64,000 nucleotides of DNA from assembly GCA_013298775.1 (NCBI GenBank), contig JAAFIV010000001.1, forward strand, positions 124,001-188,000, given 5' to 3'. The DNA is from Ignavibacteria bacterium (GTDB lineage Bacteria > Bacteroidota > Ignavibacteria > Kapaibacteriales > UBA4661). Of the stretch, positions 3,124 to 63,941 are shown one piece after another. The position numbers and the translations under genes are program-made. Within the stretch, counting starts at the first letter, position 1. Every line of letters begins with the position of its first letter. The notes below the pieces were generated by a model that saw only the letters and a program-made list of their open reading frames with translations, had not been told where the DNA came from and ran no database searches.

Positions 3124-3312
3124 GAATTGAGGTAACTTGGTCATGCGCACAAAATACTGTCGCATTCGCCCCCTTGATAAAGGGGGAACGGGGGATTAAG
3201 GGTTTAATACCGCTTCAAATCACTCGTTTCACGTGGCAAATCCCCCGTTCCCCCTTTATCAAGGGGGCTAATGAGTAAAATTGCCACAAAACCTGACCAA
3301 TTACGAATTGAG
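3124..3312. mobile_element. family C MITE-like element with 8-bp TSD GAATTGAG
   Basis: Element 3132-3304 (173 bp) is flanked by exact 8-bp direct repeats GAATTGAG at 3124-3131 and 3305-3312. Its ends are GTAACTTGGTCATG and the complement of GTAATTGGTCAGGT. The interior is a long inverted repeat built on CCCCCTTGATAAAGGGGG and AACGGGGGATT. It lies between the isomerase start (3095) and the PBP4 stop (3325). No open frame. The same end type carries different interiors at 20018 and 53875. Confidence 0.88.
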
Positions 3313-20009: not shown

Positions 20010-20179
20010 ATTTCAGGGTAACTGGTCAGGTTTTTGAACGCAGATTGCCATGATTTCCATGATGAAGAGGATTTCAGAGAAGAATATTCCTTCTTCTCTC
20101 CAGTCTTCATCTGCGAGAATCGTGGAAATCATGGGAATCTGTGTCCCCAAAATTACGACCTGAACAGGTACATTTCAGG
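20010..20179. mobile_element. family C MITE-like element with 8-bp TSD ATTTCAGG
   Basis: Element 20018-20171 (154 bp) lies between exact repeats ATTTCAGG (20010-20017, 20172-20179). Ends are GTAACTGGTCAGGT and the complement of GTACCTGTTCAGGT. The interior is an imperfect inverted repeat of the GCAGATTGCCATGATTTCC / GGAAATCATGGGAATCTG type, unrelated to the interiors at 3132 and 53875. The right TSD copy contains the TGA stop of the flippase gene (20175-20177), so insertion hit the exact gene end without changing the protein. Confidence 0.87.
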
Positions 20180-45165: not shown

Positions 45166-45332
45166 GTAAATGGTCAGGTATGCTTGTTTTCTCGTCGGGC
45201 GGCTGTTATCACAAGCGCAGTAGCCGTCCGGCGAGTTTTTTTTGGGAAATCGTGTGAAAGCGTCGCGTGTACACCCGCCGGACGGCTACTGTACTTGTGA
45301 TAACAGCCGCCCGACGGGATAGTCCTTGATTA
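45166..45332. repeat. family C-like element with GC-rich core, worn right end
   Basis: Left end GTAAATGGTCAGGTATGCTT matches family C. The core is a strong inverted repeat (CGTCGGGCGGCTGTTATCAC ... GTGATAACAGCCGCCCGACG) with inner CCGTCCGGCGAG arms, the same core as at 53875. The right end (AGTCCTTGATTATC) is diverged and appears to overlap the stop of the OstA-like gene at 45330. No TSD found. Confidence 0.7.
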
Positions 45333-53851: not shown

Positions 53852-54153
53852 ACAAAGTACCATAAAAAATCTTCGTAACTGGTCAGGTATCTTCTCGCCC
53901 AAGCGGCTGAGGAGCGCAGAAACGCTGCCGTCCGGCGAGTTGGTCGCTTGCACAACACTCGCCGGACGGCTACTGCTCTTATGATAACAGCCGCCCGACG
54001 GGAAGACCTGACCAGTGACAAATCTTCAACAGTGGCACAGACATTCTTGTCTGTGAGTGTTGGTACGGGGTTCAAGTAACAAACACAGACAAGGAGTCCC
54101 AAGCCACTGGCACGCGGTTCTATGCGCTCTGAGAGGGTTTTGCTTGGTATTTA
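53852..54153. mobile_element. family B element interrupted by a family C element
   Basis: After the nested element (53875-54019) and one TSD copy are removed, the remaining about 149 bp follow the family B layout. Left end is CAAAGTACCATAAAAAATCTTC. Then comes AACAGTGGCACAGACATTCTTGTCTGTGAGTG with the inverted core. The right end is GAGGGTTTTGCTTGGTA, a worn GAGGTTTTGTCGTGTA. Lies between the ahcY terminator and the secF terminator. Confidence 0.65.
53867..54027. mobile_element. family C MITE-like element with 8-bp TSD AAATCTTC
   Basis: Element 53875-54019 (145 bp) between exact AAATCTTC copies (53867-53874, 54020-54027). Ends are GTAACTGGTCAGGT and the complement of GTCACTGGTCAGGT. The interior has GC-rich GCTGCCGTCCGGCGAG and CTCGCCGGACGGCTACTG arms plus TTATGATAACAGCCGCCCGACGGG, closely related to the interior at 45166. 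Confidence 0.88.
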
Positions 54154-57673: not shown

Positions 57674-57751
57674 GTCCACGAATCTCACGAATTGACACGA
57701 ATCACGAAAACAATCGAAGCAAATTCGTGAAGATTCGTGCGATTCGTGGAC
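57674..57751. repeat. inverted repeat of the CACGAATC type
   Basis: 78 bp. GTCCACGAATCTCACGAATT at the left faces AATTCGTGAAGATTCGTGCGATTCGTGGAC at the right. No clear TSD. A further palindromic core type, located just beyond the small lipoprotein gene stop at 57760. Confidence 0.7.
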
Positions 57752-63649: not shown

Positions 63650-63941
63650 ACGATACAACTTTCGCAAAATGCTCGTTTTGTAGCACAGACAAGAGTGTCT
63701 GTGCTACCGAAGACACATAAAATCTGCATCAATTGGTAGCGCAGACCTTTGTACACGACAAAATTTCTTCAGCAGTGGCACAGACATTCTTGTCTGTGAG
63801 TGTTGGTGCGGGATTCAGGTAAGAAACACAGACAGAAAGTCTCAAGCCACTGAAGCCTGATTTTACGAGCTTTTCAGAGGTTTTGTCGTGTACAAAGAGC
63901 GCAGACACTCCTGTTTGCGCCATTTACGAAAGTCCTAAACG
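63650..63941. mobile_element. family A element interrupted by a family B element, 3-bp TSD ACG
   Basis: Family A ends at 63653 (ATACAACTTTCGCAAAATG, worn) and 63938 (TTTACGAAAGTCCTAA), flanked by ACG at 63650-63652 and 63939-63941. The span is 286 bp; subtracting the nested family B (151 bp) and one 9-bp TSD leaves exactly 126 bp. It begins 150 bp upstream of the TPR kinase start. Confidence 0.88.
63738..63906. mobile_element. family B MITE-like element, 151 bp, 9-bp TSD AGCGCAGAC
   Basis: Element 63747-63897 has a perfect 17-bp terminal inverted repeat (CTTTGTACACGACAAAA and complement) and lies between identical AGCGCAGAC copies (63738-63746, 63898-63906), which are part of the disrupted family A core. 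The cleanest copy in the window. The interior holds CACAGACATTCTTGTCTGTG and inverted partner (with mismatches). No open frame worth calling. Confidence 0.92.

Follow-up and report, generated by a model that had tools for sequence, protein, structure and literature searches.

Miniature elements with IS66-type ends enclose unrelated palindromic cores in an Ignavibacteria genome

A group of short mobile elements is described here from a 64,000-nucleotide stretch of the draft genome of an Ignavibacteria bacterium (the window, G000:C1:124001-188000, from an assembly of 5.19 Mb in 95 contigs), where one type of inverted end, the 14-mer GTAACTGGTCAGGT, brackets interiors that are unrelated to one another. 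The genome holds more than 100 such miniature elements with common 14-base ends, and its genus has placed palindromes of six or more mutually unrelated kinds between these same ends, which are referred to below as the shell, with the enclosed interior as the core. The elements are very probably non-autonomous type II miniature inverted-repeat transposable elements (MITEs) of an insertion sequence (IS) of the IS66 family, with modular cores; their similarity to IS66 is confined to the 14-16 terminal bases, as the definition of type II MITEs requires (PMC10969869).

A preliminary description of the window had reported three elements with shared ends, 8-bp flanking duplications and wholly different interiors. 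All three lie where it had placed them, each between perfect 8-bp direct flanks (Table 1), and pairwise comparison found their interiors to be mutually unrelated. The ends are indeed shared by elements 2 and 3, which differ from GTAACTGGTCAGGT by 0-2 mismatches, and by the right end of element 1 (one mismatch), while the left end of element 1, GTAACTTGGTCATG at 3132, is degenerate and has one extra base. A fourth member of the group, with a decayed right end, shows no clear duplication at its flanks. The 29-mer taken from the CCCCCTTG core of element 1 has 47 forward and 46 reverse matches in its own genome, and no match in a sample of 295 other genomes of the phylum.

Table 1. Elements with IS66-type ends in the window (window coordinates), and copies of the GCGGAT core in a second shell elsewhere in the sampled loci (locus coordinates)
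Feature	Coordinates	Strand	Details
Target-site duplication, left copy, element 1	3124..3131	.	8 bp, GAATTGAG
Element 1	3132..3304	.	IS66-type ends (left GTAACTTGGTCATG, right GTAATTGGTCAGGT), core CCCCCTTGATAAAGGGGG
Palindromic core, family CCCCCTTG, in element 1	3165..3270	.	29-mer matches
Target-site duplication, right copy, element 1	3305..3312	.	8 bp, GAATTGAG
Target-site duplication, left copy, element 2	20010..20017	.	8 bp, ATTTCAGG
Element 2	20018..20171	.	Left IS66-type end exact, right end GTACCTGTTCAGGT with 2 mismatches
Core of element 2, CATGATTTCC	20038-20143	.	
Target-site duplication, right copy, element 2	20172..20179	.	8 bp, ATTTCAGG
Fourth member, GC-rich core	45166..45325	.	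Left end GTAAATGGTCAGGT, right end decayed
Target-site duplication, left copy, element 3	53867..53874	.	8 bp, AAATCTTC
Element 3, GC-rich core	53875..54019	.	Left IS66-type end exact, right end with 1 mismatch
Target-site duplication, right copy, element 3	54020..54027	.	8 bp, AAATCTTC
Second shell (GTACATGATTCTTG ends) with GCGGAT core	L081 14895-15100		
Second shell (GTACATGATTCTTG ends) with GCGGAT core	L087 6455-6655		
Second shell (GTACATGATTCTTG ends) with GCGGAT core	L067 2985-3185		

Across the whole genome, the 14-mer GTAACTGGTCAGGT occurs 260 times with up to two mismatches, as against 31 occurrences of its reversed control. Pairs of ends were examined in 60 stretches of up to 20 kb around exact ends together with the window, which amount to about 1.17 Mb or roughly a quarter of the genome and are biased towards well-kept ends. 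In this sample GTAACTGGTCAGGT-type ends form 74 inverted pairs with no more than 600 bp between partners, and the 8-bp flanks of these pairs are identical at all eight positions in 37 and at seven of eight in 17, so that most end pairs do carry the duplication (54/74), whereas mispaired ends used as a control reach seven of eight in 0.7% of cases and eight of eight never. Inverted terminal repeats with direct duplications of fixed length are what is expected of MITEs, and the lengths of the elements (100-352 bp, mostly 139-174) fall below the limit of about 500 bp for this class. Two copies have inserted into the end of a second repeat shell, with the duplications AATTATGC and ATGATGCA/ATTATGCA, and the corresponding empty sites are found as uninterrupted sequence in other copies of that second repeat in the same genome.

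To compare what lies between the ends, the interiors of 89 elements with duplications matching at six or more of eight positions were collected from the genome and two congeners. Clustering that required mutual coverage gave 14 clusters, and merging of nested variants reduced these to eight core families: GC-rich, GATGAAG, CCTACC, GCGGAT, CACGAATC, CATGATT, CCCCCTTG and an AT-rich core of 202 bp; a ninth core, GCGAGGG, was sighted once, without a good duplication. A loose single-linkage clustering had been discarded, as nested and chimeric elements linked nearly everything. Real shared sequence was found in only two of 36 family pairs: the GC-rich and CCTACC cores have a half-arm in common and in a congener occur as half-and-half chimeras, and the GATGAAG and CATGATT cores have their outer 31 nt in common. 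A third pair above threshold shared merely an A-rich 14-mer. Thus no single sequence, variously degraded, underlies the interiors, and their difference, as claimed at the outset, extends genome-wide to most core families, with the exception of the two pairs that share an outer arm or half-arm. The space between the ends is nearly always taken up by a long, imperfect palindrome, and most interiors are strongly folded, with z < -3 relative to dinucleotide shuffles in 77 of the 89 (random 140-mers: 3/60). It was also observed that further palindromic elements are nested within cores, frequently close to the middle of the palindrome (L147 12181-12466, L033 at C1:252775-253044, and L062 at C27:7233 and C27:14765).

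Ends and cores act as modules that can be separated. The same shell holds different contents in different members of the genus, where a congener (G005) has the GATGAAG core in 18 of 18 sampled elements and another (G002, an Ignavibacteria metagenome-assembled genome, MAG) has the AT-rich core along with CACGAATC and CCTACC-type chimeras; some cores are found in more than one species. Conversely, a core can be found between other ends. One such example is the GCGGAT core, which is present both in the IS66-type shell and in a second shell with GTACATGATTCTTG-like ends; alignment of three copies from each shell revealed a common 85-bp core, with similarity ending at both of its borders. For the GTACATGATTCTTG shell, a 3-bp duplication (TAA/TTA) was seen in only three of about ten copies, and no duplication length is claimed. 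The GGCACAGACA core likewise sits in other shells, one of which is bounded by CTTTGTACACGACAAAA ends and shows a 9-bp duplication in 11 of 26 copies, and cores or their relatives are also present without the IS66-type shell. The proposal that the ends are a reusable shell for different palindromes is therefore supported by the core families and the flank counts, with the qualifications that some kinship exists within two pairs of core families and that the shell is genus-specific: among 41 related genomes compared, only certain members of that genus have the ends in abundance, a tight end-pair pattern searched in 84,980 species genomes was found only in the Ignavibacteria MAG JAAFHM01 (a collection that may leave out the records of the window's own genome), and a search of viral contigs, those of phages included, gave no GTAACTGGTCAGGT-type ends.

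Several observations of a more local kind concern these cores. Within the window, palindromic GGCACAGACA-type repeats lie inside a different shell, with CTTTGTACACGACAAAA ends, at 1116-1191 and 63776-63842, the copy at 63776 being flanked by the 9-bp duplication AGCGCAGAC, and a CACGAATC core without IS66-type ends lies at 57674-57749. The 202-bp AT-rich core, which is hardly palindromic, occurs within the same ends at L167 652-853 in a congener and at L162 9256-9457 in another genus of the family, the latter copy without a good duplication.

The preliminary description had pointed to a transposase gene with the same ends as the thing to look for, and an IS66-family element of this kind was located in the congener G002. 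Here the end of an IS66 transposase (NF033517, 8e-8) has a stop codon that abuts an exact copy of the 14-mer, and at the left end the exact 14-mer leads into the transposase reading frame, so that the ends of this multi-copy element are identical to those of the miniature elements. Of the nine left and nine right IS66 ends in G002, all or almost all lie where a contig stops, as would be expected of a collapsed multi-copy element, and three left/right pairs have an identical 8-bp flank (ATTTCAAC, CCTAAATC and GATTTGCT; 0.0075 expected by chance). When the G002 left end was used as a query against the window's own genome, repeated matches were obtained over its first 16 nt only. In another congener, a degenerate IS66 transposase terminates within a variant end, GTAACTAGTCAGGT, and further relic copies in congeners have variant GTAACTGTTTAGGT ends. 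Members of the IS66 family have 8-bp duplications and ends starting with GTAA (PMC11946415, PMC3281130), and the parent resembles them in both respects and in a transposase with zinc-finger and DDE regions (NF033517 with zf-IS66 and DDE_Tnp_IS66 domains in the elements of relatives). It differs from them in that its ends are GTAACTGGTCAGGT, with GTAA followed by CTGG, and not the usual GTAAGCG, and in an inverted match of 14-17 bp in place of inverted repeats of 20-30 bp; its assignment to the family rests on its transposase.

With this parent in hand, we infer that an IS66 transposase mobilises the miniature elements in trans. Such a transposase would need little beyond an inverted pair of 14-bp GTAACTGGTCAGGT ends and would duplicate 8 bp at insertion; as little else would be needed, anything between two such ends could move, and a strong hairpin might help by bringing the two ends together. 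How palindromes came to lie there can be suggested with less assurance. Pre-existing palindromic repeats may have become bracketed by IS66 ends, either because two short elements landed at mirrored sites of a palindrome, bracketed it and lost their own interiors, or by template switching in replication at hairpins, as the chimeric arms suggest. Some findings weigh against this picture of an IS66-derived family with palindromic cargo. The AT-rich 202-bp core of a congener is not clearly palindromic (z -1.0), no core-capture step has been caught in the act, and the 8-bp duplications of the G002 IS66 were matched across contigs, no full-length copy being readable in one piece. In addition, neither an IS66 transposase nor the IS66 left end was found in the assembly of the window's own genome, no transposase was present among the multi-copy open reading frames of the sampled stretches, and none of the small contigs, when searched for a collapsed IS, carried one. 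This draft assembly seems to lack repeats of less than about 2.5 kb, and the genome's own IS66 may have been lost, or may have been left out of the assembly together with the multi-copy contigs below that size.

One of the cores is in turn a target for another transposon. Several contigs of the genome (for example L139, L133 and L067) break inside the GC-rich core, and the break is an IS110-family element with at least 14 copies in the genome, all cut by contig ends. The copy in a congener has the domains PF01548 (5e-22) and PF02371 (6e-15), with NF033542 above cut-off, and thus the DEDD and Transposase_20 regions by which the family is recognised. The left ends are preceded by CCCGTC in 13 of 13 readable copies and the right ends are followed by TCGGGCGG, so that insertion takes place at CCCGTC^GGGCGG and TC flanks the element on either side. 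The left end contains TTTCCCGTC and CGCCCGA, guide-like sequences that fit both halves of the target, while the congener's copy has CGCGTC where its own target reads GCGTC, and such matches would be expected if the element were guided by a bridge RNA (PMC11208160). While insertion of IS110 elements into repetitive extragenic palindromic (REP) sequences or MITEs is already known (PMC1525189, PMC10969869), the result here is a nest of three layers, with the cargo palindrome of a miniature transposon serving an IS110 element as its landing site.

Because this IS110 element has its target within the cores, its recombinase could itself be the agent that exchanges them, if it recognises CCCGTC^GGGCGG and recombination there joins one shell arm to another core. 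The constant insertion context and the guide-like matches are in keeping with such a role, as is the occurrence of CCCGTC in both the GC-rich and CCTACC cores, the two that form half-and-half chimeras in a congener. However, at least five other core families lack the target, and at best the exchange between two families would be explained in this manner, which makes it quite improbable as a general account. An ordinary MITE family derived from one parent, with interiors decayed past recognition, is harder still to reconcile with the data and appears extremely unlikely, since each core family comprises multiple, well-conserved copies, the similarity within most family pairs is no higher than between shuffled sequences and a core also lies between unrelated ends; what can be said for it is that the arm or half-arm common to GC-rich and CCTACC cores, and to GATGAAG and CATGATT cores, indicates some turnover within one lineage. 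In this respect the earlier contrast with a MITE family from one parent is upheld, although type II MITEs sharing only their termini with an IS are a recognised class (PMC10969869).

A different possibility is that the palindromes are the mobile units, REP-like sequences that repeatedly insert into one shell as their preferred target. Cores or their relatives do occur without the shell, palindromic elements are nested in cores, one with 9-bp duplications has landed in a shell end, and the genome has two matches to Y1_Tnp, the Y1-type transposase. In contrast, no element consisting of the two ends alone was seen, whole units move with 8-bp duplications, a duplication of this kind is not left by REP-type movement as known so far, and these cores have as yet been linked to no Y1 transposase; this explanation is accordingly regarded as unlikely. 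It has also been considered that the cores are kept for a function in the host, as transcription terminators or regulatory RNA, with the shell incidental. Strong hairpins that lie mostly between genes would suit such a function, whereas core types and copy numbers vary between congeners and, with genes called as simple open reading frames, no excess between convergent genes was seen (6 of 49 intergenic elements, compared with 134 of 779 gaps), so that a host role is very unlikely to account for the pattern.

It is possible, and we suggest it only tentatively, that palindromic repeats form a common pool of interchangeable cargo, which several unrelated bacterial transposons take up between their ends, and that end-swapping around palindromes, as opposed to internal deletion of one parent, gives rise to new MITE families. 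Internal deletion accounts for MITEs with leftover IS sequence, but not for end-only elements such as these. A single genus contains the parent IS66, several core lineages across species, a core that lies between different ends, and both filled and empty sites, so that two questions can be put to the test: by what route cargo gets in between the ends of a transposon, and whether a miniature element benefits from a hairpin interior.

Among the systems already described, the closest are the type II MITEs of prokaryotes (PMC10969869), which are likewise short and gene-free, resemble an IS only in their terminal repeats and have direct duplications, but which usually have one interior per family, as opposed to the six or more unrelated palindromes found here and the core that recurs between other ends. 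No description of an IS66-derived palindromic MITE was found in the open-licence papers searched, and an earlier one may exist elsewhere. The Tn3-derived inverted-repeat miniature elements (TIMEs) with mosaic cores (PMC4133298) also have common ends whatever the core and mobilise different cores; in their case, composites consist of two whole TIMEs with plasmid segments between them, whereas the ends described here are of 14 bp and the cargo is almost always palindromic. IS110 elements in REP sequences and MITEs (PMC1525189, PMC11208160), including IS1111 in QMITE2 (PMC10969869), share with the present case one exact insertion point in a repeated palindrome, and differ in that the palindrome here is itself the cargo of IS66-type miniature elements. 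REPINs and REP sequences (PMC3116915) are multi-copy intergenic palindromes as well, while the elements described here have IS66-type ends and are mobile as whole units that produce 8-bp duplications.
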